In this document: one piece after another, positions 16,401 through 64,000 of the stretch
How the letters are laid out: every line of letters begins with the position of its first letter
Position numbering within the stretch: the first letter of the stretch is position 1
Origin: Theobroma cacao
Taxonomy: Eukaryota > Streptophyta > Magnoliopsida > Malvales > Malvaceae
Direction: 5' to 3'
NCBI RefSeq assembly: GCF_000208745.1
Contig: NC_030851.1
Span: 734,667 to 798,666, forward strand
Length of the DNA stretch: 64,000 bases
The notes under the pieces: generated by a model
What the model was told of the DNA's origin: nothing
What the model saw: the letters and a program-made list of their open reading frames with translations, nothing else
Database searches by the model: none
Program-made: the position numbers and the translations under genes

Positions 16401-16483
16401 CATATATAATTATATCATACAAGATTTTGATGAATTAAAACTCTCTTTTTTATCCTTTTTCTAACGAAGATGAAGGTATAACT

Positions 16484-38389: not shown

Positions 38390-41300
38390 ATGCAGCTCTT
38401 CAGGAAGCTCCTACAGGACAGCGATTTAAGCGAGACGCTCTCGTTTCCAACCGAAAGTTTGAAGGCTTTTAATTTACCTGATGGAGCTGATCCTTCCATG
38501 GAGTTTGAAGCAGAGGATGCCATGGGGCATCCCTGGCAGTTCCAACTCACCATTCAACCGCACGGACCTGATCGCCTCCATCCCGAACCAACTCTCAGCT
38601 CAGGCTGGTTTCACTTCGTTTCCCAAAAGGGTCTCAGGGCAGGCGATGAGGTCGCTTTCTATAAGAAGGAAGATGGGAGCAGAGGACCGCCATTCAAAAT
38701 TGAAGTTCAGAAAGTGAACACATTCTCGAATCCTGATATACAGCCCACTGTGCAGTACGTATGTACATTTAAACATTTTACTCTGTTTTCTTTTTTTTTT
38801 AAAATAATATTTAAGGAATTGGGTTCAAATTTCTTTTCTTCCGAATCGAAAAAATATAACAAATGATATCTATAGAACTTATAGTACTTGTATGATGCTC
38901 TCAAGCTATTGCAATGTGGAAAGAATTGATCGTTGGCATTTGCAGATTGAGAATGGGAAGGATCCAAATGGCAAACAGGGCGTAGCTTCTGATATTCAGT
39001 CAAGTGAACCAGAGCCTGATGATCGAACTGTCACTTCTGCAGTTATCACCACATCCAGTGGCAAAATGCAGAGTTCAGACAGCAAGCTTCCAAATTTGCG
39101 GTTCCGCCAGCAAGCACGTCGGAAGGTACACTGTGATTTTTTTTATCAAAACCGTAAAAAGTTTAAACAAAATAAGGAGGTGAGGAAGAAATGTAAGGTG
39201 TTGAGCAGGAAGAAGGATGCTTTGCTCCTACTTTTATCTTATCCCATGGTTATGATGGACAAAGATCAATCGGAGAAATGGATTGCCGAGTCACAAAAGA
39301 TCATGAGAGATGTGAAATCAAATGAAGAAAATTTGTTTGGTGAAGAGGCAGAAGAATGGCAGAAGAGGCTGCAGGGACTTTCTGCACGTGTGCAGAAGCA
39401 GCTGGATGTTCCCCTCACGGATGATGTGGAGGGAGTTTTACCAGGAGACATAGTTGAGAAACTGTTTATGTCTGCAGAAGCTAATATAGGGCCCCAGTTG
39501 GAATTGGATAGAAACCGGAACTTGGTTTCCGGAGAGACATCAGAGTCTACGGTCTCATCAACACACTGTGAAAGGGAAGTAACAGGAGAGCAAGATAAAA
39601 CACAGCTAATGGCTTCAACAAGTTATGCTGATCAAGTTGAAGAAGTTGAGTTAATCGCGCACGAAGCACTGCCTGTGCCAGAAGAAGTATTTGATGTTGC
39701 AGTTGATTTCGCTGTTCGTCAGACTTTGGATTGTATAAAGAGGGGAGATATTAACCGTATTCGAATAACTGGGAGAAACGAGCAGAGGGTGATAGAGGCT
39801 ATAAAGCACCATCAAGATGTGGCTCCTGAATTTAGATATATCCTTGGTTTCACTTTACCGGAGCATCAAAGTAGTGCAGAGGTTCATGAAGTTATTGACC
39901 GGCAGTTGGATCTTAGGCTAAGCAGATGCTCTGGTTCTATTAACCTCGCACCTGAATTTAAACTGTCTGACAACTTGCAGTCCTTAGGAATTTTTTTGCT
40001 TTTGGAGGATTCTTACAAAAAAATGAACTTTGATAATTTGAGTCTCCCTTTACAGATAAACCTTAATGATTTGGATAATCATTTACATCCAAGTGTCATG
40101 ATCTTTAATTCTAAAATGGCAGCTGATCTGGAGATTAGAATGGAGGATCATCTATTGCCATGGGAGGTCTTCTGCAGGAATGCAGGTGAAGTTCTGCTTT
40201 CACCTACTATCCGACAGATAGCAGCACGTATAGTTAAAGAGTGCCGAGGAAATCTACAAGCCATCCTTCTAATGGCCAGGTCCTTGAAGACCGTTACTGA
40301 TGATGTCAGCCTGTGGGAACTTGCGGTTCAAAAATTGTCCAGGCAGCCGACATCTGAGGTAGAAGATATTGACTATGTCATGGTTAATGCATTAACATTC
40401 ATTTGGGAACGCATGAACAATAAAACAAGACATTGCATCAAACTTTGTACATGGTATCCCTTGGGAGAGAAGATTGATAGAGCTTCACTAATATGCCATT
40501 GGATCCAGGATTGTCTGGTTGACACGTATGATGAAGGAAATGATATTCTCCAAAGCCTTGTCGATGCCTTCCTGGTGGATAATTTGCCGGAGTTAGATTG
40601 CATCCAGCTGCGAAGAGAGATCTATGATGTCTTAGTGAAGGTTCTTATACCTAGAATGAGTCCAGTATTTCTCATGCTAGGTAGTCTAAGATTGACTGAG
40701 CCACCAAAAGACGAGGAATGGGATGCCAAAGAGATACACTTGATGGATAATGAACTATCTGAGCTACCTGAGTCTCCAAAGTGCCCCTCTCTGATTGCGT
40801 TGTACCTGCAGAAGAACTTGGATCTGATGGCTGTACCTTCCTCTTTCTTCAAGCACATGCCAAATCTTCAAATCCTGGACTTATCACATACCAGTCTCAA
40901 ATCTCTGCCAGAATCACTGTCCAGTTTGGTTACACTGAGAGAACTCATTTTGAAAGGCTGTGAACTCTTGATGGAACTGCCTCGCTATGTTGGAGAATTG
41001 AGGAATCTTGAGAAACTTGACCTTGACAAAACTGAGATCATAGATCTCCCAGCAGAGGTTGGAAATCTTTCCAAATTAAAATTTTTGAGAGTGTCATTTT
41101 ACGGATTTATGAACTGTAGCAAAACAAAGTTGTGCCGGGACACTATTATTCACCCTGGAACAATATCAAAGCTCTCTGAGTTAACCGAATTAAACATTGA
41201 TGTCAATCCAGATGATGAGCGTTGGAATGCAACTGTGCAAGCTGTTGTTGAGGAAGCGTGCAGCCTGAAAGCTTTAAGACAACTCAATCTACACCTGCCA

Positions 41301-42257
41301 AACATCCAAATATTGCAAAAACGTAGAGCAGGTAGCACATCTTTGGTGCATTATCCATTACCTCGATTCAGATTTACTGTTGGTTATCATAAGCAACAGG
41401 TCATATCACGAGTTCCAGAAGAAGCTGAAGCTCACTTCAAAAATGGGGAAAAATGCTTGAAGTTTGTGAAAGGCAGGGATATCCCAGCTGAGATGAAAAT
41501 GGCACTGAACCACAGCACAGCATTTTTCCTAGACGGGCATGCCACTGCCAGGAGCTTGTCTGATTTTGGGTTAGAAAATATCAAGCAGCTTAAGTGCTGC
41601 TTACTAGCAGACTGTCATGAGATCCAAACCATTATTGATTGTGAAGAGGCTCACGAAGAACATGATTCACTCGAAAAACTACAGTACTTGAATGTATACT
41701 GCATGAAGAATTTACAGAGCATTTGGAGGAGGCCTGTTCGTAAGAATTGCCTAGCTAGCCTGAAGTTCCTTGCAGTTCACGCATGCCCCAAGTTGACTAC
41801 CTTGTTCTTGCCGGATTTGCTTGCTAATCTTGTTCTGTTGGAAGAGCTTATAGTTGAAAAATGCCCACAACTAACGAGCCTAGTGAACCTGACAGACCAT
41901 TCATTCTCTAACCCAGCAACTGATTGTTTTCTTCCTAGCTTAAAAAAGATTTCTCTTCTTTATCTACCAGAACTGGTTAGTATTTCTAGTGGTTTGTGCA
42001 TTGCATCAGAACTGGAAAGTGTAGGCATTTACAACTGCCCAAAGCTCGAGAGCCTTTCTACAGTGGAAATTTCAAGTGAAAACTTAAGAGTGATCAAAGG
42101 AGAAAGTAAGTGGTGGGAAGCATTGAAGTGGAAAGAATCAGAATGGGGAAATCGGCTAGATTATCTGAATGGTATCTTTTCTCCAATTATCAGGGAGAAT
42201 GATATAAAGACACAATTGGCAGCAGAGGGACTTGTAGAACTTAGTTTTAACCAATAG
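38390..42257 (+). CDS. B3 DNA-binding domain fused to a P-loop-less NLR (NLR with integrated domain)
   Basis: Two exons (38390-38758, 38946-42257) encode 1226 residues. Exon 1 is a plant B3 fold: LFRKLLQDSDLSETLSFP, then GHPWQFQLTI, LSSGWFHFVSQKGLRAGDEV and AFYKKEDG. Exon 2 holds a linker, a helical region (VRKKCKVLSRKKDALLLLLS) and an NB-ARC-like part (about 390-700). Its P-loop position reads RIRITGRNEQRVIEAIKHH, without GxxxxGK(T/S); the kinase-2 position reads IFLLLEDS, the GLPL position CRGNLQA, and no MHD is seen (IQLRREIYDVL). LRRs run from about 717 to the end (EIHLMDNELSELPES, LPNLQILDLSHTSLKSLPES and later units). It therefore should not bind ATP in the usual way and looks like a sensor or decoy receptor. 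The start at 38390 is the first ATG of the frame. Its neighbour 560 bp downstream, on the opposite strand, is a P-loop-positive CNL. Confidence 0.87.
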
Positions 42258-42817: not shown

Positions 42818-45727
42818 TCACCTGAGGCTGCAGAAGGATTGAAGGTGGTCTCTAACCTCACTGTCTTGCCACTGCAATGCTTCCCACCATAGTTGTTCTC
42901 CTTCTATTAATTTTAGCTCTGTTGCATTGTTTTTACTGAAAGGTAGTGATTTCACCTTGGGACATCCAAATATCTTAAGCACCTTTAACTGGGGCCATGC
43001 CAATGACTCATCCCCAGATATAGTTCTTAATTTCGGCATGTCAACCAGTTCCAAAATCTCTAGACTTGGAAGCTCAATCAACTTTTCTATCTTGAAGCAA
43101 CTTTCCATTACCAATTTTTTGAGTTTTGAGAGCTGTTGAATCACCCCATTGGAAAATAGCTTTGTCAACATTGGACAACACTTCACTACAATAGTATGTA
43201 GTTTTGACAAGCTTTTTCCTGAAATGGGGCCTTCGAAAATGCTCTTCAGAAGGAGCAAATTCCTTAAATGTAACTGTTCCAAGATCGGTAGAATGTCCAT
43301 TTCTCCTTCCCTTTCGGCATCTATAGTACTTGTGATTTTATCGCATCGCTCAATCAGACAACTGCGAACATGGTTCAGGCTGGCAACATTCATGAAGTCT
43401 GATAGACATTTGATGTTGTTGTGACCGATCAATTCCAATGCATCAGTTTTAGGAAGGACATCACGAACTGTAGAATCATCATTGCCAGTATAGCAGTATC
43501 GCATATATCTATTTACCTTGTATTCCAAACAGTCAAGAATCAGAGGGTTGTTTTCGCTTTCACAGCCAACAAAAAACCAAAATGAGGTTAATTGTTCGTG
43601 ATCCCTCCATGATGGCCTGTTTTCAATAAACATTTTGAGGATCTCTGGTCGCGGAAAGCTTATTCTGAGAGTAGTTAAATTCTTCAAGAAAGCCACCTCC
43701 TGAATGACTCTTTTTGCAACATCAATGCACCAATGGCCATAGGGGGTCACATCAATCATCAGTTCCTCCAATCTTGAAAGACTTGAAATCACTTTGTAAT
43801 CAATTTCCTTATCACGATAGTCTTCTGTATTGCTGCATTTATGGTATGACATGCGCAAGCACCTCAGGTAAACTAATTTGCCAATAAGAAGAGGTATGAA
43901 TATTATCTTGCAGCCTCGAATGTCAAGCACCTCAAGAAAACGAAGTTCTGCAACTTGGGGAGGCAACTTTGTTATGCTGGGGCAATCATTTAAGAAAAGA
44001 GCCTTAAGTCTAGTCAATGTTGATACAGATAATGGCAGTGATGCTATTCCTGTTCTGTACAAGTCCAAAACTAGAAGTTTCTGCATGTTCTGAAAAAATG
44101 ATGGTGGGATGGTAGCCAAATTGGGATTTCTTTGAAGCAATAGCGACAAAAGCTTGTTGCAATTTGGACTTTCTGGCAACTCATGCAGTTTTCCTTCAAT
44201 CATAGAGATCCTTCTTGCCTCTTGCCAATCTGTAATATTTTGAGGATAAGATGAATGTTCACCTTTTAAAGCAATGAATTTGCAATCAGGCTCTTGTGAG
44301 GAAATGTATAAGGCAACTTGTCGGACACTGTTGTTCACTTGAACATAGATCATTTTCTCACCTTTCTCTAGCAATGACACATTGACTAGATGCCCCAATA
44401 TGTCACGTCCTTTATCCCGTGCAACTCGAAATTTCCACCTGTCATCAATAGTGCCAAGTAGTCCTTCAGCAGCCCAACACTCCACTAAATGATCAACATA
44501 TATCTTGCTATCAGCTGGATATAATGCACCATACAGAAAGCATTTCTTTTTCTTCTCATCCTTCAGCTCATGATAACAGAACTTAAGGAATGCATGCATG
44601 TTTGTTAAGCCTGGGATCTCAATTTCTGGCCATTTTTCAAGTTCTCTCAATCCATTCCTCCATTCAGAATCACTGTCCTTTAATTTAAAGGAACTTGCCA
44701 CTGTTCTGATCACAAGTGGGAGTCGATCACACTCATCTGCTACCAGCCGAGCAACTGGTTCAACATCAGGGAGATCTATTTTCTCAGCTGCTATCTGTTG
44801 AAACATCCTCCATGCCTCATCTGAAGATAATCGATCCACTTTGACCATTCTTTCTGTCATTGACGAACAAACATGACGGAATTCAGTAGTCAATACCACT
44901 TTGCTACCATTTCCATTATCTGGGATTCCAATCTGCTGCAAATCAATGGAGTCCATGACTTCATCTAGGAGCAGCAAATACTTCTTATCCTTCATCTCTT
45001 CTGATATGATATTTGCAAGTTCACCAGGGCACATAGCAACTTCCGTCTTGAGTTTAAGTCGCTGTGCAATGTTCAGTTGCAGTTTCTCATCATTCCTCTC
45101 GCTTGAAACATTTACCCAAATGACTATATCAAACATTTTGGCAACTTCTTCGTGGTTATTCAAGTTCTTCATTATTGTTGTTTTCCCAACTCCCACTGTG
45201 CCAAAAATGCCGATTCCTTTTAGTTTATCACTTCTTAGCAACTCCAGTATTTCTTGTAATGATCTTTGGAGGGTAGGAAATCCTTCAAGGTCTGGTGCGT
45301 TCAACTTTAAGATGGCTTCTGGAGGCTTATCTACCAAAAATCCTCCTTGAAAATCTCCCTCTTCCACAAGTCTCTCAACTTTCTTGCACATGGTAATGGC
45401 CTTGCTACTATAATTTGAGCCGTGCCTCCAATCTGAGGCTCGCACACTATCATATTCAGCTCTTAATGTTTCCACTTGTTGAAGAGTCTTTGCAACGCTG
45501 CTAAGCCACTTTTTGTAGCATCTGGTGGTTGTTTTTGTTCTATTTTGTTCCACCGTCCCCTCATGATCATCCCTTTTTGCCTGGAGCTTTTCTGCAGCAG
45601 TTATCATCATGTCGAAATTATTATCCATGTTGTTCCATGAACTATGCTTCCCCATAAGGTAGTCGAAAGCTCCTTTTGCCCCATCTTTTGCAATTTCTTG
45701 TAGCAATTCCTTTGCCAATTCAGCCAT
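42818..45727 (-). CDS. CC-NB-LRR (CNL) receptor, RPS2/At4g27190-like, with intact P-loop
   Basis: An intronless frame of 969 residues starting MAELAKELLQEIAKDGAKG. The frame is open further upstream (ATG-like codons from 45823), but this start gives a normal CC N-terminus. The CC domain (to about 150) is followed by NB-ARC: P-loop GIGIFGTVGVGKTT, RNBS-A FDIVIWVNVSS, kinase 2 KKYLLLLDEVMD, RNBS-B GSKVVLTTEFRHVC, a GLPL-like CDRLPLVIRTVA, and RNBS-D KKCFLYGALYPAD. At the MHD position it reads VQVNNSVRQVALYIS, so Met-His-Asp is replaced. LRRs follow (LHELPESPNCNKLLSLLLQRN ... CPKVKSLPF). Such receptors sit at the plasma membrane or cytosol and trigger hypersensitive cell death. Its tail-to-tail position next to a P-loop-less receptor suggests it is the signalling partner; that is inference. 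Confidence 0.9.
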   Translation of the reverse strand: MAELAKELLQEIAKDGAKGAFDYLMGKHSSWNNMDNNFDMMITAAEKLQAKRDDHEGTVEQNRTKTTTRCYKKWLSSVAKTLQQVETLRAEYDSVRASDWRHGSNYSSKAITMCKKVERLVEEGDFQGGFLVDKPPEAILKLNAPDLEGFPTLQRSLQEILELLRSDKLKGIGIFGTVGVGKTTIMKNLNNHEEVAKMFDIVIWVNVSSERNDEKLQLNIAQRLKLKTEVAMCPGELANIISEEMKDKKYLLLLDEVMDSIDLQQIGIPDNGNGSKVVLTTEFRHVCSSMTERMVKVDRLSSDEAWRMFQQIAAEKIDLPDVEPVARLVADECDRLPLVIRTVASSFKLKDSDSEWRNGLRELEKWPEIEIPGLTNMHAFLKFCYHELKDEKKKKCFLYGALYPADSKIYVDHLVECWAAEGLLGTIDDRWKFRVARDKGRDILGHLVNVSLLEKGEKMIYVQVNNSVRQVALYISSQEPDCKFIALKGEHSSYPQNITDWQEARRISMIEGKLHELPESPNCNKLLSLLLQRNPNLATIPPSFFQNMQKLLVLDLYRTGIASLPLSVSTLTRLKALFLNDCPSITKLPPQVAELRFLEVLDIRGCKIIFIPLLIGKLVYLRCLRMSYHKCSNTEDYRDKEIDYKVISSLSRLEELMIDVTPYGHWCIDVAKRVIQEVAFLKNLTTLRISFPRPEILKMFIENRPSWRDHEQLTSFWFFVGCESENNPLILDCLEYKVNRYMRYCYTGNDDSTVRDVLPKTDALELIGHNNIKCLSDFMNVASLNHVRSCLIERCDKITSTIDAEREGEMDILPILEQLHLRNLLLLKSIFEGPISGKSLSKLHTIVVKCCPMLTKLFSNGVIQQLSKLKKLVMESCFKIEKLIELPSLEILELVDMPKLRTISGDESLAWPQLKVLKIFGCPKVKSLPFSKNNATELKLIEGEQLWWEALQWQDSEVRDHLQSFCSLR

Positions 45728-47567
45728 TGTAACTTCTATGCTGCAACATAGCATTGTGACAAAATCAGATGCCTGCTCATATTTATTGGAAGGAAAGAAT
45801 AGAAGAAAGCATGAAAGTATCACAAATTTCTGAAGTGATCAGGCTAAGATTTTGCAGCCAAAATATTTCTGTTTCTTTTTAGGAAAATTGATTGATTTCT
45901 TTGTGTAATGGTTCTGTCTATTCTCCTATTTTTGTATTTTAGTAGCAGGATTTTTTTCCTTTTCTTTTGGATAAATAAAACTTTTTACTTCAAAAAAAAA
46001 AAAAAAACAGATGCATGCTGAGCACCGGCAATTGTTAAACCCCAAATAAGCTGATCATCTCATCATAACTTGCCAATCTACCTTTTTCAATGCACCATTC
46101 AATCCTAACTACATTATCTAGAGGAGGGTTCAAAGCTTCATGCATAAACCTGAAATCTTACCCAGAAAACAGAAGTAGAAATGGCTCTCCAGATTCATTC
46201 CAACAGTCACAATCCAATTATATTTGTTCCAACATAAGAAAAAAAACATATATCAAATTTCTTACCTTTTATTTGCTCTCGACTTCAAGTCATGAAAAGA
46301 GTTTCATGCAACAATCTGTGGGCTTATACTCTTTATGTTTTTTTTGTGTCTTGTTTCTGGTGTGGTGTTGTGCTGGTTGTAAAAGAGTCTGTTATGAACT
46401 GGGTCTTTGGGGAGCTCTGCTTGTATCTGGGCAGGGGAGAAACAGGGTTATTTTCCTGTTTCAAGATTCTGAGTCTACAGGGTGTGGATGTTGTAAGGAA
46501 GAATTATCTGTTGTGTTTCTTGGGTTGCTGTGAGCAGACAAGGAGAAGAGGGACTCCCCTCATCTAGAGGGGAGGTTCTTCCCTTGACTCTTGTTGCAAT
46601 TAATAAAATTCAACGGGTTTACTTGAGAGTTTCAAACTAGTTCAAAGAAACAAGAAAAATCTAGCTAAGGTTCAAAGATCAAAACACAATCAATCAATCA
46701 ATCAACCAACTTTGATTGAAACGACAAGCACATAAACTACTTGGTCTTGTACTGTCCCGAAGCATTCTCAAAAGCACCCGACAAAGATTTATGTTTCAAA
46801 CCATATTTTGATGAATTGTGTAATCTACTAACAGAAAACTTACATATGTCTACTGGCAGATGATGGACCGTTGACTCAGGAGATGCAAGAGATTTTTTGG
46901 CTCTGATCTGGAATGCCCATACACCACTTGAATCTCATGACTCACTTTTCATATGTCTTTGTAAATAGATAGATTATTGTCTTTGCTAGATATAATGCAA
47001 GAACTAGTTATTACATCTGTAACATACAAGAAGTTTCAAATGAGCTTCCTCTAGCCACGTGGAAGATAAAAAAAAAAGAGAGGTAGAAAGAGAAAGAAAA
47101 AAGCATGTGAAAAGGAGGTTGAAAGAGGCCCGGGCCATAGTCTATTATTCTTAGATGTTATCTCCTGATCAATAATTGTATGCCATGACACCATTGTCCT
47201 GTCCAAACTACTGTAGTCAAAGTCAATGCCTGGCGCTAAAATGTCAATTGTGGTTTGCCTTGGTCGGTGTATATTTTTTTAAAAAATAAAGAATTTAAAT
47301 TCTACTTTTCTTTCTTCAATAATTTTTTTATATAAAAGAAATATATTAACTTAAATCAAAATTACATCATCTTTGACCAAATAATATCAAACATATTTCT
47401 AAATAAAATAATAAAAATACTAGATGGTAAGCCTAATAAAAAATTATTATGATGTGTTGCCATCTAATCTGTACACTGATTAACTTTAAGATGTACGTGA
47501 ATTACATAGCAGTCTCAACTTCTCTGTAACAGACCTTTGATCTTTTACAGTAAATTAGCATAAAGGT
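45728..47567. other. CNL promoter and spacer; no clear gene
   Basis: 45728-46000 is the probable CNL leader. Plus-strand frames at 46090-46567 are hydrophobic and Cys-rich with no family match and no splice logic. They end in a segment with CTCATCTAGAGGGGAGG and AATAAAATTC that looks like the 3' end of a transcribed element. A CAATCAAT microsatellite lies at about 46686-46705. 47240-47450 is AT-rich. Confidence 0.4.
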
Positions 47568-51438: not shown

Positions 51439-51481
51439 AAATTAAACTAACAAGTTGGATATAAATATCAAACTTGCAGAT

Positions 51482-53146: not shown

Positions 53147-53160
53147 GAAGAGACAGAGGA

Positions 53161-54098
53161 AAATTTAGGGTTCAGTGAAGTAAATTTTGCTTTTTAAGTA
53201 AGAGATTAAAATATTGTGACAAGGGACAAGGGCGTGCCGACCAAAGTTTGGTTTTCGCTAGTTCAAAGAACATATGGGCGTTTCTTCAACTTGCTCTTCA
53301 TTGTTTCATTTGACTAAATTCATGGAGCAGATCTTGGGAGTGAGCGGGCGGCTCTCGCTTCTTCTCACATGAAGTTTGAAAGCTTTCAACAACGCTACCG
53401 GAGTGTGGAAGAGTCCATGGCAGATAGGCTATTGATGAGATGGGAATTAATCATGGGGGGTTGATGCTCAGCATTTAACAGGTTGGTACCCGAATCCCCT
53501 ACATATGCAAGCCAGATTGGTCCTTTTTGTTGGATGAATCATCCTCCCAGGGATTAGATTTTTATATTTGAGACGTAATTTTTATGCAAAGAAGACTAAT
53601 AAGATTTAATTACACAGGTGGAGCACTTGATTTCCCAAGTTTTACTACATTTGGAAGCTCTCGTCCTCCATTCATTGATTACTAGTGAATTGTTAACCGG
53701 CATTAGGGAAGTAAAAACCATCTGCCAAACTCGTATCAAGGTATAGCTGGACACAGTAAGAGTACAATTTCAAGTTTAACTGAGCCTGGAAATTGTTAAC
53801 TCTGAGCGCTCAACTATAAATTGGATACGACAAACTTTTCCTGCTAATTCTTTCATTTTCCAACCCTTACGGACTTTTTTTTTTTAATTTGACAACTTAT
53901 TCTCGATTCCTGGTGCAAATTACTACATGCTTTCAGCTTCGAATTCACTAATTTTCTATTCTTAGATGCCAATGTCCTGCTACTTTTTGGCTTGTATTCA
54001 ATCACACTTGCTGGACGAAACCTTATCTCCTATTGTCGAGATTTTATGGTAGTACATCTAATTCTTTCTTTCTTTTTTTTTTTTTTTCCAATAGAGAC
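53161..54098. other. Spacer between the LINE and the WRKY exon fossil
   Basis: No open frame with family features. It contains a T-run (53878-53886) and a longer T-tract just before the WRKY fossil (54070-54087). Parts may be the old promoter of the captured WRKY gene. Confidence 0.4.
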
Positions 54099-54401
54099 AT
54101 GGAGAGCTGGGAACGTAAGAATGTTAGAAATGAACTAAGACAAGGAAGGAAGCTAGCAAAGCAGCTCCAAGCAAATCTCAAACAGTCATCTTCCTAAGAA
54201 AATCCTGAGTTAGTCCAAAAGATCGTATCTTCCTTTGCAAAAGGCACTTTCAAGGCTTAACTGCAGCACCTCCTCTATGGCAGCCAAGCTGCAGCCCATA
54301 GCTCACGGCTCGCTTGCTCGTGATGGAAGTCACCAGAGTAAGGACTCTGACCATGATATCATGGAGCAAGAATTCAAAGTTTAAGATTTCTTCATGAAAA
54401 G
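54099..54401 (+). pseudogene. Fossil of group III WRKY exon 1
   Basis: From the ATG at 54099 the frame reads MESWERKNVRNELRQGRK then LAKQLQANLK, which is the typical N-terminus of group III WRKY factors (WRKY30/41/53 type: ME-x-WE(Q/R)K...NEL-x-QG...AKQLQ). After a TAA at about 54196 the homology continues as ELVQKIVSSFAKG, again a group III hallmark. More stops follow, with a likely frame change. The block ends with SKDSDHDIMEQEFKV, a TAA, and AAAAG before GTACATG, the usual place and phase of intron 1 in these genes. It shows that a whole WRKY gene, not only its DNA-binding domain, was captured here and that its original first exon is dead. Confidence 0.72.
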
Positions 54402-54473
54402 GTACATGTAGACATATGGGAAATTTATGATGACATAAGATGGAAACCTAAACCAATTTATGCTTAATTGCAG

Positions 54474-54960
54474 TGAAGTAACTGAGTCACAGCCTAAAGG
54501 ACTTGCAACTGGAATGTCTAAATTCCCGCCTCCTTTTAGTGGAAGCTTCTCAAGTATGGACTCCTCAAGTACGGGGAATTTGGAAGCCTTTGACGGGTAT
54601 GTTTCCTCTCCTTTTTATGAAAGCGATACGGACTCTGACTATGGATTCAAGGAGCAGGAGTTCAAAGTAAACTACGATATCAATAAAAAAGTACTTTCTC
54701 TATTTCTTTTTTTATCTAATTTTTTAAATGTCATATAATATATTTCATATTTCTAATTTATTTTTTCTATTAAAAATATTAAATATTTACTTTATAATTT
54801 TTAAAAATTTTAATATAAAATATTTCAAAATCAAAACTTTAATTTTAATTTTCATGAAAAGAGTACTTGGCAGGAGTACTTAAGATGATCTATAAAAGGG
54901 AAAACTAAACCAATTTATGCTTGAGTGCAGTGAGGCAGCCGAATTAAAGCCAACAAATGT
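54474..54960 (+). pseudogene. Older, decayed copies of the pre-WRKY repeat exons
   Basis: After the acceptor TTGCAG (54468-54473) an exon-like block (54474-54690) reads SEVTESQPKGLATGMSKFPP ... DSDYGFKEQEFKVNYDINKK, a longer and perhaps ancestral form of the repeat that fits the end of group III WRKY exon 1. Its donor (AAAAAAGTACTT) is poor. At about 54880-54960 a further intron end (TATAAAAGGGAAAACTAAAC then GAGTGCAG) is followed by a short SEAAELKP remnant. They lie upstream of the VQ start, so they are probably not in the mature message. Confidence 0.6.
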
Positions 54961-55255
54961 TTATGATAAATAAATAAATATACAAAAAAGCTGCCGCCGG
55001 AAATAAGATATATAAAATAATATTAGAAACGATTGTTATAATAAATAATTATTGGAGAAATATTGGAACTGATTTTGCAAAAATAGGCAATAATATTTGC
55101 ATTGACTTAGCTTTTCTTTCTGTTTTTCAAAGTCAAATAATTTGCCCGAAAGTGTTCAAGGCGGTTCATGTCATCATCTACCCAAAAATTTCTGCTCCTC
55201 TCTTTCCCTTCTCTATCCCCGAAAGGACCTTTCTTCATCAGCAGCATCGTCGATC

Positions 55256-58178
55256 ATGGACTCTCAATTTCACGCCGGGGAGCCACCGTCAAAGCGTCAG
55301 CTACAAATCCAAGGTCCACGCCCACCCCCTCTAAAGGTCAGCAAAGACTCCCATAAAATCAAAAAACCACCTCACCCACCATCCCACGCCGCTGGTCCCG
55401 CAGCAGCAGCAGCAGACCAACGCCGTCCCGAGCCAGTAATCATCTACGCCGTCTCACCAAAAGTCATCCACGCTGAAGAATCCGATTTCATGTCTATCGT
55501 GCAACGCTACACCGGACTTTCATCCGGTACCTTCTCCGGAGACGGCGACGTCTACCGGGCGGCGAGGTTGGCAGCGACGGAAAAGGCGAGTTCTAGCTCG
55601 AGAGAGAAAATAGGGGACGTGGGGGTCGCGGGTGAAGGTGCGATGGAAGAGGGTTTGATTCGAGCACTGCCAGGGATACTTTCTCCGCCGCCGGAGACGT
55701 TGCCAGAGGTGGCGGTGGGATTCTTTTCCCCCGTTCGTACGCCAGGGGGGACGTTCTTATCGCCGGCGGCGAGGTTGGCAGGGACGACAAAGGGGAATCC
55801 TAGCTGGAGAGAGAAAATAGGGGACGTGGGGGTCGCGGGTGAAGGTGGGATGAAAGAGGGTTTGATTCGAGCACCGCCAGGGATACTTTCTCCTGCGTCG
55901 GAGACGTTGCCAGCGGTGGCGGCGGGAACATTCTTTTCGCCCGCCGTAGCAGGGGGGACGTTCTTATCGCGGGCGTCGGAGGCGAGAATGATGTCGGCAG
56001 ACATCATATATGGTCAATCAAATAGTTGCAGTGTGAAAGATGAGTCAAAGCCTGCGGGACTTGCAAACATAATGTGTAAGTCCTTGTCTGGCTATAACTT
56101 GGAGGAGCAAAAGCTCACAGTCAGTGATGCTTCCAAGAAAAGGTGTGTATAACAGGCATATGGGCAATTTATGATGATATAAAAGGGACAACTAAACCAA
56201 TTTTGTGCTTTAACTATAGTTCTGCAGGTGAGTTACTACCCACAGAAGTTGAGTTTAAAAAGCCCAAATCCTCGCATTATCTTGGCGAAAGCCTCCCAAG
56301 TAAGGACTCTGACTATGATTTCAAAGAGGAGCAAGAGCTCAAAGTCAATGAAACCTTCAACAAAAGGTATGCTGTATATATTTATGGGTAATTTGTGATG
56401 ATAATTAAAAGGAAATCTGAACCGATAATTTGTGGTCAATTAAATAGTTGCAGTGTGAAAGATGAGACAAAGCCTGCAGGACTTGCAATCGCAATGTTTA
56501 AGTCCTTGTCTGACTATAACTTGGAGAAGCAAAAGCTCACAGTCAGCGATGCTTCCAAGAAAAGGTGTGTATAACAGGCATATGGGCAATTTATGATGAT
56601 ATAAAAGGGACAACTAAACCAATTTTGTGCTTTACTATAGTGCTGCAGGTGAGTTACAACCCACAGAAGTTGAGTTTAAAAAGCCCAAATCCTCGCATTA
56701 TCTTGGCGAAAGCCTCCCAAGTAAGGACTCTGACTATGATTTCAAGGAGGAGCAAGAGCTCAAAGTCAATGAAACCTTCAACAAAAGGTATGCTGTATAT
56801 ATTTATGGGTAATTTGTGATGATAATTAAAAGGAAATCTGAACCGATAATTTGTGGTCAATTAAATAGTTGCAGTGTGAAAGATGAGACAAAGCCTGCAG
56901 GACTTGCAATCGCAATGTTTAAGTCCTTGTCTGACTATAACTTGGAGAAGCAAAAGCTCACAGTCAGCGATGCTTCCAAGAAAAGGTGTGTATAACAGGC
57001 ATATGGGCAATTTATGATGATATAAAAGGGACAACTAAACCAATTTTGTGCTTAACTATAGTGCTGCAGGTGAGTTACAACCCACAGAAGTTGAGTTTAA
57101 AAAGCCCAAATCCTCGCATTATCTTGGCGAAAGCCTCCCAAGTAAGGACTCTGACTATGATTTCAAGGAGGAGCAAGAGCTCAAAGTCAATGAAACCTTC
57201 AACAAAAGGTATGCTGTATATATTTATGGGTAATTTGTGATGATAATTAAAAGGAAATCTGAACCGATAATTTGTGGTCAATTAAATAGTTGCAGTGTGA
57301 AAGATGAGACAAAGCCTGCAGGACTTGCAATCGCAATGTTTAAGTCCTTGTCTGACTATAACTTGGAGAAGCAAAAGCTCACAGTCAGCGATGCTTCCAA
57401 GAAAAGGTGTGTATAACAGGCATATGGGCAATTTATGATGATATAAAAGGGACAACTAAACCAATTTTGTGCTTTAACTATAGTTCTGCAGGTAAGTCGC
57501 AACCCACAGAAGTTGAGTTTAAAAAGCCCAAATCCTCGCATTCTCTTGGCGAAAGCCTCCCAAGTGAGGACTCTGACTATAATTTCAAGGAGCAGGAGCT
57601 CAAAGTCAATGAGGGCTCCAGCAAAAGGTATATATAAGGGCATATGAGCAATTTATAATAATACATTGCCAACTAATCAAAAAAAAAAAAATTACATTGC
57701 AAAGAGAAGGCCTCAATTAACCTTTTATCTTAAATTGGTTTGAACAAAACAATTTCATGTTGCAGGAAGGATAGGGAGAGGAGGACAGTATTGGTTCACT
57801 CTGGTACGGTCCTAGGGGAACTTCCTCCTGATGGTTACAATTGGAGGAAATATGGACAGAAAGTTATTCTTAATGCAAGATTTCCAAGGTAGAGACACTT
57901 TCCTCTTTTAGCGCATATTATTAAAAGCAAGATGCAATTGATGCTTTAATTAAGGCTCAGACCGCTCCGTTTAGTTGTTATTTTTTCTTCATAAAGCCAT
58001 TAAGTGTGTTATTTAGGGTTATAGGTTAATCAGTTTATTCTTTTGAGAGTTAAAGTTCACACTTTTCTTTTTTGGTATATGGAGAAGATATTTCTTCCTT
58101 CCTTATCATGTCTTTCTTGAAGCCATTTTCGTATATCCCTTCAGAATGCATTGCTTTAGAGTAACACTTGAGACCTTC

Positions 58179-58237
<59 letters not shown>

Positions 58238-61200
58238 CTGAAACATTATCACATAAAATCAATGTAGGCCAAAAACCAACTCTATGTGGACAGCTTAAAC
58301 TGGACTTTTACTCCTCTGCAGTTCCATTATTATCTGTTCCAAGCAAAAGATGTTTTATCAGTATGAGCATTCTTGACTGCATGCTAGTGCAGCACCTTGG
58401 TGCCTAACCAATGGCATGATTTAATATTTTTTTCTGGATTTAATGTAGAATAACTGTTCTAGACAATTGTGTATATTTGATAATAACTCCCATTTCCTTG
58501 AGAGCTAGTGTCCCAAAGACATGCCATGTAGATGTATTTCATATATCCTATTTTTGATGAAACAAATTTCAAAATTCACTGAGCTTTAAACATGAAATAA
58601 CCTTTCTTCTCTGTCTTACAGAAAGTACTACAGGTGTGAACATCGACACAGCCAAGGCTGTAAGGCTATAAAGCAAGTCCAAAGAGAGGATAAAGATCCA
58701 ACGATTGCCTGGGTTACTTACTATGGAGGACACACTTGCACACTAGCTGTACAAAACCTACTTTTTATCATGTTCCATTTAGATTAAGGTCTTTCTTAGA
58801 TAGATTAAATTAATTTAGATACTGATATTCTAGTGATATAAGTATTTTTCATGTATGTTTGCAGCCTTTGGATACTGTACTTGGCGCCTATGGAGATGAC
58901 AAAAAGGATTCACAATCTAATCTTCAGTCAAGTGTACACAGTCCTGACAATCAAACTTGCATTTCGTCAACCGAGCTGACAAGTGAGGTTCCAAATTTAG
59001 GGCTCAACCTGAATGTGTTTCCTGAGAAATCATTTGAGTCATATCCAATGTGGGTAAACTTTCATGAAAATGAAGTGAGGAAGAATTGGAAAGTGCTGAA
59101 CAGGAAGAAGGATGTGCTACTCTTACTTTCATCTTATCCTATGATTATGATTGACAAATCTGAAACAGATAAATGGATTAGTGATGTAGTGGCAATCATG
59201 AGACATGTGAAATCAACAGAAAAGATTTTATTTGGTGTAGAGGTAGCGAAACATTTGCCAGGAATCACTATGCTACACAAACTTTCTGGACGTGTGCAGA
59301 AGTTGCTGGATGTTCCCTTGATGAATGATATTGAGGGAGTTTTACCGGTAGACTTGGTTGAGGACCTATATAGGCCTACAGAAGCTGATTTAAAACCCCT
59401 GTTGGAAGTGAAACACAATATAATTAGCGGAAAGACATCAAAATCTAGAGGTTCACCAAGTAACAGTGAAGGGGCAGCAATAGAAGCTGAAAAACAATTG
59501 CAGCCAATGCCTGCAAAATGTAAAACTCTGGTAGAAGATACTGAGTTGTCAGCCAAAGGAACACTGAATGCACCAGAAGAAATATTTGACTTGGCAATTT
59601 ATTTAGCTGTTTGTCAGATCGTAAAATGTATAAACAAAGAATATATCTGGTGTATTACAATCAGTGGAAGAGATAAGAAAAGGGTGCTAGAAGCAATAAA
59701 GCAGCACCAAGATATAGGTTCCGATTTTGGATATATCATTGTATTCACTGTGTCAGAAGATCAAAGTGGGGCAAATGTTCATGGTGTCTTTCACCTGCGG
59801 AAGGGTATTTGGCTAGGTGGATGCGTTGATCCTGTTCACCTTACACATAAATATTTTGACAACTTGTGCTCCCTAGGAATTTTATTGCTTACAGAGGATG
59901 ATTATGACAAGAACATGAACCTGGATCACTCTACACTCCCATTTTCGATAAACCTTAACAAGTTGGTTGACCATAAACATAGTGATTCAAGGTTCATAAT
60001 CTTTACTTCTGAAATGGCAGCAGACATGGAGATAAGAATGGAGGATCATTTGTTGTCATGGAAATTGTTTTGTAGGATTGTGGGTGAAGGTTTGCTTTCT
60101 CCTAGTATCCAACAGATAGCAGCAAGTTTGGTGAAAGAATGCCGTGGCAATCTCCTCGCCGTCATTCTAATGGCCAGGTCCTTGAAGAAAGTTGTTGATA
60201 ATGTCAACTTGTGGGAACTTGCTTTTAAAAGATTGACGATGCTACCTCCATCTCAGATAGAAGATATAGACAATGTCCTGATTAATGCATTAGCGTTCAT
60301 TTGGGAGCGTATTAACAATAAAACAAGACATTGCATTAAGCTTTGTACTTGGTATCCCAAGGGAGAGAAAATTGACAGAGTCTCACTAATACAACATTGG
60401 ATCCAAGATTGTCTGGTAGATACCTATGATGAAGGTACCAACATTATCCAAAATCTTGTTGATACATTCCTGCTTAATATTGTGGAATTAAATCACGTCC
60501 AACTGCGAAGAGAGATCTATGATGTATTAGTAAACCCACTAATTCTTCAAATGCATCCATTATATCTTATGCTAGGCGGGGCGAGATTGATTAAACCACC
60601 AGAAGAAGAGGAATGGGATGCCAAAGTGATCCATTTGATGGATAATAAATTATCTGACCTACCAGAATCTCCAAAGTCACCCTCACTAATTGCATTGTAC
60701 CTTCAGAATAACTTGGATCTCATGGCTATCCCATCTTGTTTCTTCAAGCACATGCCTTTGCTTCAAATCCTAGACTTATCACATACCAGTATAAAATCTT
60801 TGCCAGAGTCAATTTCGAGTTTGGTTAACCTTCGAGAACTCCTTTTGAAAGGCTGTGAACTCTTAATACGACTCCCTAGGCATGTTGGAGAACTGAAGAA
60901 TCTTGAGAAGCTCGACCTTGACGAAACTCAGATTATAGATCTCCCAGCAGAGATTGGACATCTTTCCAAATTAAAAATTTTGAGGGTCTCATTCTATGGA
61001 TATATGAACTGTAGCAAAACAAGGTTGCGGCAAGATACAATAATTCCCCCTGGAACAATATCAGGTCTCTCTGAATTAACTGAATTAAGCATTGATGTTG
61101 ATCCAGATGATGAACGCTGGAATGCTACTGTGAAAGCAATTATTGAGGAAGCTTGCGACCTGAAAACTTTATTACAGCTTAATTTGTACCTGCCAAACAT

Positions 61201-62158
61201 CGAAATATTGTGGAAACGAAGAACAGGTAGCACATCATTGCTCCATTACCCCTTGCCACGTGTCAGATTTACTGTTGGTTATCACAAACAGCAGGTCATA
61301 TCTCGAGTACCAGAAGAAGTAGAAGCTTACTTCAATAAGGGCGACAAATGCTTGAAGTTTGTCAAAGGCAAGGATATCCCAGCTGAAATGAGAATGGCAG
61401 TCAACCACAGCACAGCATTTTTCCTGGAAGGTCATGCTACAGCTAGGAGTTTGTCGGATTTTGGAATTGAAAATACCAGGCAGCTAAAATTTTGCTTATT
61501 GACTGAATGTAATGAAGTCCAAACCATCATTGATTGTGCAGAGTTTCCTGAAGAGCAGACTGATGCACTTGGAAACCTACAAGACTTGACTATATATTAC
61601 CTGAAGAATTTAGTGAGCATTTGGAGGGGGCCTGTTCATAAGCACTGCCTAGCTAGCCTGAAGTTCCTTGCACTTCATAAATGCCCCAAATTGAGTATCA
61701 TTTTCTCGCCAGATTTGGTTGCTAATCTTGCCAATTTAGAAGAGCTCATTGTTGAACACTGCCCTCAACTGACCAGTCTTGTGAGCCTAATAGGTCATGC
61801 ATCCAGCAACTCAGCACCACAACCAAATTGCTTTCTTCCAAGCTTGAAAAGAATATCACTGCTTTACGTGCCAAATCTTGTTAGCATTTCTAGTGGCTTG
61901 TGCATTGCTCCAGAGCTGGAAAAAGTAGGCTTTTACAATTGCCCGAAGCTTAAGAGTCTTTCTGCGATGGAAATTTCAAGTGAAAATTTGAAGATGATCA
62001 AAGGAGAAAGTCGCTGGTGGGAAGCATTGGAGTGGAAGAACTCAGAGTGGGGGAACCGGCTGGATTATCTGCATAGTATCTTTTCCCCACTTATTAAGGA
62101 GAGAGATGTGAAGGCGCAATTGGCCGAGGAGGGAATTATGCACCAAGCTTCAACTTAA
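55256..62158 (+). CDS. VQ (MKS1-like) - repeat array - group III WRKY - P-loop-less NLR fusion
   Basis: Eleven exons join in perfect phase to 1782 residues: 55256-56142, 56220-56366, 56454-56564, 56641-56787, 56875-56985, 57062-57208, 57296-57406, 57484-57627, 57766-57888, 58622-58748 and 58865-62158. Exon 1 is an MKS1-type VQ protein (KRQLQIQGPRP, KDSHKIKKPP, IIYAVSPKVIHAEESDF; VQ motif FMSIVQRYTG at 78-87). Residues about 260-601 are four A and four B repeats. Exons 9-10 form a WRKY domain: WRKYGQK at 628-634, zinc ligands C648, C656, H680 and C682 (C-x7-C-x23-H-x-C, group III), split at the usual Arg codon. Exon 11 is a degenerate NB-ARC (P-loop position CITISGRDKKRVLEAIKQH; no GKT, no MHD) plus LRRs, paralogous to the B3-NLR. 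MKS1 is a MAPK substrate that binds WRKY33/25 in Arabidopsis, so both modules are plausible pathogen-target decoys. Joins are predicted and need transcript support. Confidence 0.82.
55562..55976 (+). repeat. 207-bp in-frame duplication in the VQ exon
   Basis: Unit 1 starts at 55562 and unit 2 at 55769 (GCGAGGTTGGCAG(C/G)GACG). They are 207 bp apart, i.e. 69 codons. Both carry REKIGDVGVAGEG, then GLIRA(L/P)PGILSP and a FFSP...GGTFLS end. Such Pro-directed Ser motifs (SP) are the kind of MAPK sites found in MKS1, so the duplication doubles possible phosphosites. Confidence 0.88.
56032..57627 (+). repeat. Tandem array of ~421-bp units, each carrying two mini-exons and two introns
   Basis: The A exon (111 bp; SVKDETKPAGLAIAMFKSLS, DYNLEKQKLTVSDASKKR) and B exon (147 bp, last copy 144; TEVEFKKPKSSHYLGESLPS, KDSDYDFKEEQELKV) alternate A-B-A-B-A-B-A-B. 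A exons end at 56142, 56564, 56985 and 57406, giving periods of 422, 421 and 421. Units 2 and 3 (56454-56874, 56875-57295) appear almost identical, introns included. Every exon starts and ends in phase 2, so units can be gained or lost without a frameshift. The A1 copy is not preceded by an intron but is fused to the VQ exon. Confidence 0.93.
58182..58234 (+). repeat. 53-bp poly(A) run in the WRKY intron
   Basis: An uninterrupted A tract lies inside the intron between the two WRKY-domain exons. It may be the tail of an inserted retroposed sequence or a slippage product. No obvious SINE or LINE body is seen before it. Confidence 0.9.
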
Positions 62159-63211: not shown

Positions 63212-64000
63212 TCACCTGAGGCAACAGAAGGATTGAAGGTGGTCTCTAACCTCACTGTCTCTCCACTGTAGTGCTTCCCACCGTATTCGTTCTCCTTCTA
63301 TTAATTTTAGCTCTGTTGCATTGTGTTCACGGAAGGGTAGTGATTTCACCTCGGGACATCCAAATATCTTAAGCACCTTTAAATGGGGCCACGCCGATGA
63401 CTCATCCGCAGATATAATTCTTAATTTCGGCATGTCAACCAGTTCCAAAGTCTCTAGATTTGGAAGCTCAGTCAACTTTTCTATCTCGAAGCAGCTTTCC
63501 ATCACCAATTTTTTGAGTTTTGAGAGCTGTTGAATCTCCCCGTTGGAAAATATCTTTGTCAACATTGGACAACTCTTTACTACAATAGTATGTAGTTTTG
63601 ACAAGCTTTTTCCTGAAGTGGGGCCTTAGAAAATACTCTTCAGAAGGAGCAAATTCCTTAAATGTAACTGTTCCAAGATCGTTAGAATGTCCATTTCTCC
63701 TTCCTTTTCGGCATCTATAATGCTTGTGATTTTATTGCATCGCTCAATCAGACAACCCCGAACATGGTTCTGGCTGGCAGCATTCATGAAGTCTGATAGA
63801 CATTTGATGTTGTTGTGACCGATCAATTCCAATGCATCAGTTTTAGGAAGGACATCACGAACTGTAGAATCATCATTGCCAGGATAGCAGTATCTCATAT
63901 ATCTATTTACCTTGTATTCCAAACAATCAAGAATCAGAGGGTTGTTGTTTCTTTCACAGCCAACAAAAAACCAAAATGAGGTTAATTGTTCGCGATCCCT
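63212..64000 (-). pseudogene. Second CNL (paralogue of 42818-45727), 3' part only, premature stop
   Basis: This is the LRR C-terminus of a CNL very close to the first one, in the same orientation and again tail-to-tail with an integrated-domain NLR. The frame is open from the window edge (WFFVGC, then CLEYKVNRYMRYCYPGND) to LLLKSIF. There, at 63628-63626, a TAA replaces the GAA that the first copy has in LLLKSIFEGP. Homology continues in the same frame to the natural end (DHLQSFCCLR, stop at 63212-63214). The stop removes about 140 C-terminal LRR residues. The 5' part lies beyond the window, so it is unknown whether the NB-ARC is intact; a truncated receptor is possible. Confidence 0.85.

Follow-up and report, generated by a model that had tools for sequence, protein, structure and literature searches.

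A single open frame of 1782 residues, joined from eleven exons at 55256-62158 on the forward strand, was found in a 64,000-nucleotide stretch of Theobroma cacao contig NC_030851.1 (here called the window). It combines an MKS1-like VQ head, a WRKY domain and the body of an NLR. We favor the reading, at a probability of roughly 0.55, that the frame belongs to a single protein-coding gene, whose product would be an immune receptor of the sensor type carrying two integrated baits, the VQ head and the WRKY domain.

Eleven exons form one open frame

Exon-by-exon rebuilding of the gene gave a spliced message of 1783 codons with its sole stop at the end. All 10 introns have GT-AG borders, and the exon junctions are phase 2 in nine cases and phase 0 in the last. 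From the N terminus to the C terminus, the frame encodes an MKS1-like VQ head, a set of amplified short exons, a group III WRKY domain, a P-loop-less NB-ARC remnant and an RPS2-like LRR, distributed over the exons as follows.

55256..56142, +, exon 1: MKS1-like VQ head, internal 207-bp duplication, then repeat-A exon tail
56220..56366, +, exon 2: repeat B, within the 421-bp array
56454..56564, +, exon 3: repeat A
56641..56787, +, exon 4: repeat B
56875..56985, +, exon 5: repeat A
57062..57208, +, exon 6: repeat B
57296..57406, +, exon 7: repeat A
57484..57627, +, exon 8: last repeat B (from here P0001, see below, switches to another paralogue)
57766..57888, +, exon 9: first half of the WRKY domain (WRKYGQK)
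58622..58748, +, exon 10: zinc-finger half of the WRKY domain, C-x7-C-x23-H-x-C
58865..62158, +, exon 11: linker, conserved N block, P-loop-less NB-ARC remnant, RPS2-like LRR, stop

Each of the seven repeat exons (exons 2 to 8; 147, 111 or 144 nt) is a multiple of three in length and of phase 2-2, and together they lie within a tandem array that has 3.9 copies of a 421-bp unit, units 2 and 3 of which differ at 1 of 421 positions. A preliminary description of this DNA had proposed that the eleven exons join in phase and had named a stop or frameshift in the spliced message as a finding that would speak against a fusion; the join held, and neither defect occurs. VQ, WRKY, NB-ARC and LRR, the domains it had read from the letters, were all recovered above the Pfam cut-offs. 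Chance joining of eleven exons is ruled out by the frame, the intron phases and the predicted cacao protein P0001. We infer that the message is spliced at full length and that translation starts in exon 1.

An MKS1 gene as the source of the VQ head

The VQ domain was assigned to residues 66-90 (Pfam E value of 2.5e-7; 30.5 bits against a cut-off of 20.5). The head as a whole (residues 1-248) resembles P0121, a stand-alone cacao relative of MKS1, and over its first part 155 of 174 aligned columns are identical, the rest being 16 mismatches and 3 gap columns. Its nearest stand-alone relatives are MKS1 proteins, in agreement with the MKS1 type assigned to it earlier. An MPK4-docking-type motif with the conserved Leu and Val is present, as is FxxxVQxxTG; the 33 residues EPVIIY...GLSSG, which include the VQ motif, are exactly those of P0121, and the docking-like RPPPLKV at residues 22-28 differs from it at one residue. 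Among the 120 homologues listed, PRPxxLx[VLI] was present in 112 and the VQ motif in 117. Judged by these similarities, the head evidently derives from an MKS1 gene. Of the SP equivalents of the MPK4 sites, the first copy of the head keeps the Ser72 type and has lost the Ser108 and Ser120 types; SPAARLA recurs at 169-170 in the second copy within the duplicated head. The C terminus of MKS1 is gone, the likeness to P0121 stopping at MMSA, residue 248.

The head lies downstream of the receptor's old, broken first exons, traces of which were detected at the following positions.

54099..54402, +, relic of the ancestral first exon, matching the N terminus of P0002 and P0003
54475..54690, +, relic of the ancestral second exon, matching P0003 residues about 102-169
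54929..54961, +, stretch of 11 residues like P0002 residues 153-163 (10/11, E value of 3.3)

The first-exon relic carries stops at 54195-54197 and 54382-54384 and a frame change before 54235. The proteins P0002 to P0004 have an N terminus different from the MKS1 head, and it is this N terminus whose relic remains upstream in the window. With an E value of 3.3, the 11-residue match is possibly due to chance; it is also possible that it marks the 5' edge of the VQ segment. About 290 bases separate this last possible old-exon remnant from the VQ start, and this interval may stem from DNA upstream of the donor MKS1 gene. A repeat search of 54700-56060 for terminal repeats or a target-site duplication gave nothing convincing. 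Since VQ genes are mostly intronless, according to the account of their structure in PMC6427031, a retrocopy and a DNA copy of the segment are indistinguishable. Because its old first exons are broken, the receptor would have needed a new 5' end; we propose that an MKS1-like VQ segment, apparently with its own upstream DNA, landed downstream of these exons and became the new 5' end of the WRKY-NLR.

The same landing could have been retained for another reason, namely, that the segment supplied the headless WRKY-NLR with a start codon and a functional promoter, perhaps one that is defence-inducible, in which case the VQ peptide would be a passenger and the WRKY domain the sole bait. The broken first exons, the approximately 290 bases of possible donor sequence and the loss of the MKS1 C terminus together with two of three MPK4-site equivalents are consistent with this history, as is the predicted cacao protein P0122, which has lost eight residues shortly before the VQ motif, as relaxed constraint predicts. 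However, the VQ-motif residues are unchanged and the docking-like motif has a single change, against the 16 mismatches and 3 gaps in the 174 columns, and in P0001 a head with no residue changed sits on a different body. We regard a passenger head as unlikely, although this is the alternative that fares best.

The WRKY domain is complete and the NB-ARC is degenerate

The WRKY domain occupies residues 624-682 (Pfam E value of 1.5e-22). Direct reading showed WRKYGQK and C-x7-C-x23-H-x-C to be intact and a hydrophobic stretch, TVLVHS, to lie N-terminal to the core. The intron between exons 9 and 10 sits in the arginine codon of FPR, the usual place of the PR intron. The closest solved relatives in a PDB search were OsWRKY45 and, second, the WRKY domain of RRS1, the latter solved in structures with effectors, as stated in the portion of PMC8685902 dealing with it. 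The intact motifs and the PDB neighbors bear out a complete group III-type domain.

The NB-ARC match covers only profile positions 160-223 of 248 (E value of 1.6e-5; 24.7 bits against a cut-off of 23.5), so that the P-loop half is unmatched. On alignment, the protein had no counterpart of the P-loop columns of the neighboring CNL (GTVGVGKTT), and neither a G....GK[ST] nor a kinase-2 pattern was found in it; it gave no match to a coiled-coil family in Pfam at an E value of 10 and no match to TIR. The LRR part matched LRR_RPS2 and further LRR families. The body is thus the P-loop-less, degenerate NB-ARC with an LRR that had been described. As an autonomous CNL executor, defined by a coiled coil, a P-loop and kinase 2, the protein falls short, and by its sequence it would class as an NLR-ID, having NB-ARC, LRR and non-canonical domains in one frame, with the NB-ARC represented by its second half only. 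Relative to the B3-carrying paralogue in the window, dN/dS was 0.22 for the LRR and 0.38 for the NB part (dS of ~0.6) and near neutral for the linker (0.97) and the N block (0.91). These ratios point to purifying selection on NB and LRR, which argues that the body is not a plain pseudogene.

Other cacao models join a VQ head to a WRKY domain

P0001 (LOC18607098 isoform X3), an automatic prediction, holds VQ, WRKY and LRR and gave no NB-ARC match in Pfam at an E value of 0.01 or better. It matches exons 1 to 7 at 553 of 553 residues, and from exon 8 onward its body is that of another paralogue; the same head therefore stands on a different WRKY-LRR body. A relative with VQ, WRKY and LRR, which the preliminary description had thought worth seeking, was thus found, on another body. 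P0122 joins the VQ head to the first half of the WRKY domain at the same junction. The nearest body is P0002, which carries the number TCM_006103, and from the matching number 006103 we infer that it and Thecc1EG006103 are one gene.

A further alternative is that the fusion exists in gene models only and that the locus yields a truncated VQ protein, which ends at 56152, and apart from it a WRKY-NLR that either starts further along, for instance at an ATG in a repeat-A exon, or is a pseudogene. Without splicing, exon 1 runs into its own in-frame stop at 56150-56152, just inside intron 1; exons 3, 5 and 7 each contain an in-frame ATG (residues 359, 445 and 531), which would permit a VQ-less start of the WRKY-NLR; and models such as P0001, which joins the head to another body, can be over-joined. 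Such a division sits poorly with the disappearance of the MKS1 stop and C terminus, with a frame that enters repeat A and crosses ten phase-matched introns, with the purifying selection on NB and LRR, and with the two cacao models besides, P0001 and P0122, that join VQ to WRKY. We consider it less probable still than a passenger head.

The preliminary description had also claimed that two interacting partners of one defence complex are fused. An MKS1-type VQ motif and a WRKY domain do stand in one frame, but the claim of interaction is weak, since the integrated WRKY is of group III whereas the VQ partners reported in the relevant section of PMC6427031 are the C-terminal domain of group I WRKYs and group IIc WRKYs; MKS1 itself is tied, in the part of PMC11088704 that treats it, to WRKY33, a group I protein. 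It is improbable that the VQ motif docks on the WRKY of its own chain, gated by MPK4 docking or phosphorylation, so that the activity of the MPK4 cascade is what the receptor senses, in place of direct effector contact or in addition to it: the docking-like motif, the Ser72-type site and the VQ motif are intact alongside an intact WRKY in one chain, and TVLVHS lies where the same part of PMC11088704 places the strand N-terminal to the WRKY core that WRKY33 requires for VQ binding, but the published partner groups (PMC6427031, same section) are not that of the integrated WRKY, and two of three MPK4-site equivalents are lost.

The receptor core belongs to a P-loop-less clade

A tree places the core of the VQ-WRKY-NLR among eudicot proteins, in a clade that lacks the P-loop and whose named rows carry eudicot names; no P-loop-type motif was found beside the core in any of the 76 clade rows. 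The underlying homologue search was keyed on the whole fusion, with candidates of about 980-3118 aa, and so favors long proteins and those that carry a WRKY; of 7996 scored candidates, 329 were matches, of which the best 120 were listed. Gene models in the clade bear about 20 kinds of extra domain as labeled from their listed Pfam content, many of these architectures being automatic models, of which some may be over-joined. The regulators that the broader proposal below would place on a P-loop-less chassis comprise WRKY, VQ, B3, CBP60, AP2, bHLH, GRAS, NAC, NF-YA, kinases, RIN4, U-box and others. The cores of three architectures like RW4, RW7 and RW8, which are separate groups in Rinerson et al. 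(PMC4350883), sit together in this one clade; on that view, a single chassis would be prone to capturing domains, and the captures would not be a multitude of independent events. This wider pattern matters more than the single fusion, and a P-loop-less chassis would be a natural start for building receptors with chosen baits.

We tentatively offer, as possible rather than probable, a broader proposal: that the MKS1 head, stripped of phosphosites, serves as a bait for MPK4 and WRKY by which the receptor would physically monitor the MPK4-MKS1-WRKY node, and that the receptor is one product of an undescribed eudicot-wide lineage, in which a P-loop-less NB-LRR chassis served by P-loop-competent CNLs has had regulators repeatedly spliced on, and in which heads continue to pass from body to body in cacao.

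Comparison with known systems

The RW8 R protein-WRKY group of cacao (Thecc1EG006103, 006109 and 006116; 805-852 kb of scaffold 2; Rinerson et al. 2015, PMC4350883) has a group III WRKY N-terminal to NB-ARC-LRR. The window gene fits this definition, which is published without VQ, whereas the window gene has an MKS1 head. It also fits, with VQ, NB-ARC and LRR in one frame, the "R protein-VQ" fusions, including FvVQ13 and OsVQ34, named by Garrido-Gala et al. (2019, PMC6427031); however, their section on these fusions names no WRKY, and the strawberry protein is LRR8-NBS-ARC-VQ, whereas the VQ of the window gene is N-terminal and MKS1 derived. In a search of open-licence papers, no account was found of VQ and WRKY together in one NLR. 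Within this scope, the novelty suggested earlier holds for the combination; VQ-NLR and WRKY-NLR fusions are each known already. If expressed as one protein, the window gene would be the first known NLR in such papers with both an MKS1-type VQ and a WRKY. The window head shares the docking-like motif, the Ser72-type SP and the VQ motif with stand-alone MKS1 (VQ21), but it differs in lacking the C terminus and, in its first copy, the Ser108- and Ser120-type SP sites.

RRS1 is a TNL with a C-terminal WRKY and a head-to-head partner. The RRS1/RPS4 system of Arabidopsis resembles the window gene in its integrated WRKY, borne by a receptor that would signal via a partner; the window gene differs in its N-terminal WRKY and VQ, its want of a TIR match and of a P-loop, and its tail-to-tail CNL. 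More than one integrated domain per NLR is also seen in YrU1 of wheat (ANK and WRKY) and AtWRKY19 (PAH, WRKY and kinase), although the domains differ from those found here. In grasses, NLR lineages described by Bailey et al. reportedly take up foreign domains repeatedly. These major integration clades (Bailey et al., as cited in a passage of PMC7004385) resemble the present clade in such repeated uptake by one NLR lineage, and the present clade differs in having named rows from eudicots and in being P-loop-less.

Neighboring sensor and CNL genes

The window also contains the following NLR loci.

38390..42257, +, B3-carrying paralogous sensor (B3 exon 38390-38758, P-loop-less NLR exon 38946-42257)
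42818..45838, -, CNL1, open, P-loop-positive NLR (GTVGVGKTT)
63215..64000, -, CNL2 fragment, cut by the window end, with a stop at 63626-63628

Exon borders of the B3 paralogue were set by the cacao protein P0006, with which its LRR is identical across 502 columns. CNL1 has an open frame, in line with the P-loop-positive CNL to which the preliminary description had referred; it belongs to the same cluster and lies ~9.4 kb upstream of exon 1 of the VQ-WRKY-NLR gene.

With neither a P-loop nor a coiled-coil family match, the receptor would most likely be unable to fire alone. Under the two-bait reading that we favor, the receptor would change state when a pathogen effector bound or modified its WRKY domain or its MKS1 head, and cell death would be carried out by a P-loop-competent CNL from the cluster (CNL1 type). 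If the receptor is expressed as one protein, the MPK4-MKS1-WRKY node would be a possible target of cacao pathogens. On sequence grounds, a two-bait receptor is suggested by the open frame, the Pfam domains, P0001, P0122, the similarity to P0121, the broken old exons, the dN/dS ratios, the P-loop-less clade, the convergent orientation of the B3 paralogue and CNL1, and the PDB neighbors of the WRKY domain; the exon-1 stop, the ATGs at residues 359, 445 and 531, the missing NB-ARC match in P0001, the CNL2 stop, the tail-to-tail layout, the unequal dS values and the near-neutral linker and N block would count against it.

CNL2, the nearest would-be partner, may be dead because of its premature stop. 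In an ungapped comparison, it has the same residue as CNL1 at 229 of 262 codons. The dS between CNL1 and CNL2 was ~0.1 as against ~0.6 between the two sensors, which argues against a single duplication event in which each sensor-CNL pair was copied as a whole. CNL1 and the B3 paralogue are 561 bases apart, and CNL2 and the VQ-WRKY-NLR gene are 1057 bases apart. Whereas known pairs of sensor and executor usually have a head-to-head layout, the sensors and CNLs in the window are arranged tail to tail.

Gene structure and domains

The preliminary description had proposed that a single receptor with VQ, WRKY, degenerate NB-ARC and LRR parts is encoded by 11 exons at 55256-62158 (+), and this gene (VQ-WRKY-NLR) was rebuilt in frame with all of the domains found. 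Its introns are GT-AG in 10 of 10 cases and 76 to 733 bases long, nine exon junctions being in phase 2 and the last in phase 0. The spliced message was examined for internal stops and frameshifts, and the sole stop in its 1783 codons is the final codon. The Pfam search that had been proposed for the predicted protein gave VQ, WRKY, NB-ARC and LRR families that all exceeded their cut-offs, with the NB-ARC match confined to profile positions 160-223 of 248. Exons 3, 5 and 7 also contain in-frame ATGs, and the MKS1-like VQ segment of exon 1 (the head) is thus, judged from the sequence, not the only possible start. Two possible assembly trouble spots were noted, a run of 53 A at 58182-58234 in the WRKY intron and a single N inside an A run near 62386.

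Origin of the head

With the exon-1 product as query, MKS1 proteins were retrieved, the top one among the matches listed being P0121, a cacao protein of 222 aa named 'VQ - like 7'. Head and P0121 are identical at 155 of 174 columns, with 16 mismatches and 3 gap columns; a second matching stretch (72/81 identical) appears because the head carries an internal 207-bp duplication. The similarity stops at MMSA, residue 248, and by comparison with P0121 the MKS1 C-terminus is absent from the head. The head has 59% G+C (GC3 0.585) versus 40% (GC3 0.383) for the receptor exon, as would be expected of a foreign piece. The following features lie upstream, two of them related to the cacao WRKY-NLR relatives P0002 and P0003, which have another N-terminus:

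54099-54402, +, first-exon relic of a WRKY-NLR, resembling the N-terminus of P0002 and P0003
54475-54690, +, next-part relic of a WRKY-NLR, matching the continuation of the P0002/P0003 N-terminal part
54929-54961, +, stretch of 11 residues, too short for sure assignment

The first-exon relic is broken by stops at 54195 and 54382 and by a frame change before 54235. The head is thus flanked by dead old exons on one side and by the live remainder of the gene on the other.

One head on two predicted bodies

The seven repeat exons measure 147, 111 or 144 nt, are all phase 2-2, and look like copies of the pre-WRKY exons of P0002-P0004. Only 1 base in 421 separates the second 421-bp unit from the third, and the array is therefore young; units can be gained or lost with the frame kept.

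A separately predicted protein, P0001 ('PREDICTED: uncharacterized protein LOC18607098 isoform X3 [Theobroma cacao]'), carries VQ, WRKY and LRR, and in a Pfam-type domain search NB-ARC was not matched at an E-value of 0.01 or below. It matches 553/553 residues of exons 1-7 of the window gene and has four extra residues there, SC twice, as if acceptors six bases upstream were used. Divergence begins at exon 8 (43/48 residues alike) and continues through the two WRKY exons (60/84 window residues), the NB (274/311) and the LRR (460/512), while from exon 8 onward P0001 equals cacao P0003 (POUND7_017034) at 1250 of 1258 aligned residues. Therefore one head is joined, in predicted proteins, to two bodies, either by a body swap through recombination within the 421-bp repeats or by transcripts or gene models that continue past the head into the next body. 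When the head was used as query against long proteins only, 2 of 7999 scored candidates matched, P0001 and P0002, the latter through the repeat alone. In P0122, also from cacao, a VQ head is joined to the first half of the WRKY with the identical junction SEARMMSADIIY; this head misses eight residues shortly upstream of the VQ motif, and its VQ match of 20.1 bits is slightly below the Pfam cut-off of 20.5.

Sites kept and lost in the head

In AtMKS1, an N-terminal docking motif (Leu32) is required for MPK4 and the VQ region for WRKY33, Ser72, Ser108 and Ser120 are phosphorylated in planta, and residues 127-223 are reported as dispensable for the effect in mpk4 mks1 plants (PMC3010986). The SP positions of two crucifer MKS1 proteins (P0175, 75/111/123; P0195, 73/109/121) have the spacing of these serines, which would locate the phosphosites on the homologues of the head. 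The head keeps RPPPLKV at 22-28 (RPTPLKV in P0121), SP at 67-68 and FMSIVQRYTG, and has lost two sites, SP to YR at 100-101 and SP to SS at 112-113. Among the best 120 of 188 homologues, P0122 included, SPxARLA is present in 116, with M or V for L in two more, and [ST]P follows within 14 residues in 114. The losses could suggest a decoy; however, the internal duplication brings back one SPAARLA, at 169-170, and P0122 has both later SP sites without the Ser72-type site, and both observations count against a simple decoy reading. Relaxed constraint would account for these findings no less well than a decoy function.

The WRKY domain and the working of the receptor

The WRKY domain shows the group III pattern C-x7-C-x23-H-x-C, which is intact, as is WRKYGQK. 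Among 13 PDB sequences the closest was OsWRKY45 (6ir8), followed by RRS1 (5w3x, 7p8k). In RRS1, AvrRps4 is contacted through the WRKYGQK strand, and PopP2 acetylates that strand (PMC8685902). It had been proposed that integrated baits were formed by fusing two interacting partners. Baits remain the best guess, but the interacting pair is not supported: the WRKY partners reported for VQ proteins are group I C-terminal and group IIc domains (PMC6427031), so the natural partner of the head is probably not the integrated group III WRKY.

The neighbouring NLR genes were as follows:

38390-42257, +, B3-NLR, P-loop-less paralogue, convergent with CNL1
42818-45838, -, CNL1, open frame with P-loop present
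63215-64000, -, CNL2, cut by the window end, convergent with VQ-WRKY-NLR

The arrangement of a sensor followed by an inverted CNL therefore occurs twice in the window. CNL2 shares 229 of 262 residues (87%) with CNL1 at dS 0.095 and has a premature stop at 63626-63628 (-), and may be dead. The two predicted sensor-CNL pairs are not products of one unit duplication. Over 502 tree columns the LRR of the B3 paralogue is identical to that of cacao P0006; further B3 members among the matches listed are from Craigia, Reevesia and Diplodiscus. Together with the identity of the head to that of P0001, the LRR match assigns the window to Theobroma cacao or to something very near it. The window also holds LINE-like fragments between the sensor genes (about 47982-53164, -; reverse-transcriptase and zinc-knuckle-like frames, by eye), an F-box gene with a KIB1-4 beta-propeller (16439-17653, +) and a SWIB plus Plus-3 domain gene (28760-29656, -).

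Simple counting for the single pair of VQ-WRKY-NLR and B3 paralogue (overall dS 0.59) gave dN/dS values of 0.22 for the LRR, 0.38 for the NB, 0.91 for the N block and 0.97 for the linker. Such a conserved LRR would be unlike that expected for direct effector binding, and fits sensing through added domains. Most likely, the receptor would work as a sensor with two baits, the VQ head and the WRKY, reliant on a CNL of the cluster.

VQ is listed as an NLR-ID in 9 species and WRKY in 35 NLR-IDs, reportedly from 13 species (PMC4759884); R protein-WRKY groups RW1-RW8 are defined in PMC4350883, the only hit of a gene-name search in open-licence PMC literature, and VQ-NLR fusions are named 'R protein-VQ' in PMC6427031 (see also PMC5067614, PMC9229891, PMC12787737, PMC12405883, PMC9528084, PMC8832786, PMC7004385 and PMC11088704). 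Neither a VQ-WRKY-NLR nor a eudicot integration clade of this kind was described in the titles and abstracts listed by searches of that literature. The original observation is right and the locus richer than first stated, the chief surprises being an MKS1 head replacing a dead 5' end, one head with two predicted bodies, and a P-loop-less clade that collects domains.

A P-loop-less clade with many added domains

A quick tree (IQ-TREE, LG+G4, LRR columns, 75 different rows) was built from P0001-P0080, taken from the best 120 of 329 matches, together with three proteins of the window; P0073 had too little LRR and was left out, so that 82 of the 83 rows were kept. A clade of 76 rows (SH-aLRT 99) was separate from six P-loop-positive CNL rows. 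No G....GK[ST] motif was found in 66 of the 76; in seven (P0014, P0026, P0038, P0039, P0041, P0067, P0069) it sits on a different NB-ARC, 279 or more residues away from the clade core, and in three (P0037, P0054, P0071) elsewhere. P0014 retains a kinase-2-like motif upstream of the core. A large Malvaceae subgroup is LRR-only, its matches starting at query residue 1245 or later.

Extra domains were labelled by hand in 53 of 76 rows, from the listed Pfam content and from hmmscan searches with 21 of the listed proteins, of which 20 belong to the clade. This gives a provisional 24 architectures and, with the outgroup included, at least 33 changes along the tree; long branches (P0059, P0061, P0062, P0071 and others) were flagged, P0059 and P0061 may be grouped falsely, and many of the models come from automatic annotation. 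The extras include WRKY, VQ, B3, CBP60, AP2, bHLH, GRAS, U-box, SHI, NF-YA, NAC, PCC, response regulator with Myb, kinase, RIN4 cleavage site, lipoxygenase, TIR and others. The sole extra was another NLR in five rows and a TIR domain in two, leaving 46. Outside the clade, a hand count of the same list gave 2 of 27 NB-ARC matches with such domains (Fisher, 1e-8 for 53 rows and 9e-7 for 46, a guide only since rows include isoforms and close kin).

RW4-like (P0059), RW7-like (P0021, P0022) and RW8 architectures all fall inside this single clade. VQ and WRKY also occur together at another place in the tree, in the predicted Hibiscus protein P0044, where residues 17-1218 carry the clade LRR, WRKY, CBP60 and, at the C-terminus, a VQ motif; by direct reading the WRKY of this second case is C2H2-type. 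Other single predicted proteins join a kinase, the clade LRR and an AvrRpt-cleavage (RIN4-type) site at 1119-1152 (P0072, Lonicera), DUF702, LRR, response regulator and Myb (P0045, Durio), or PLAT and lipoxygenase C-terminal to the NLR core of the clade (P0020, Davidia).
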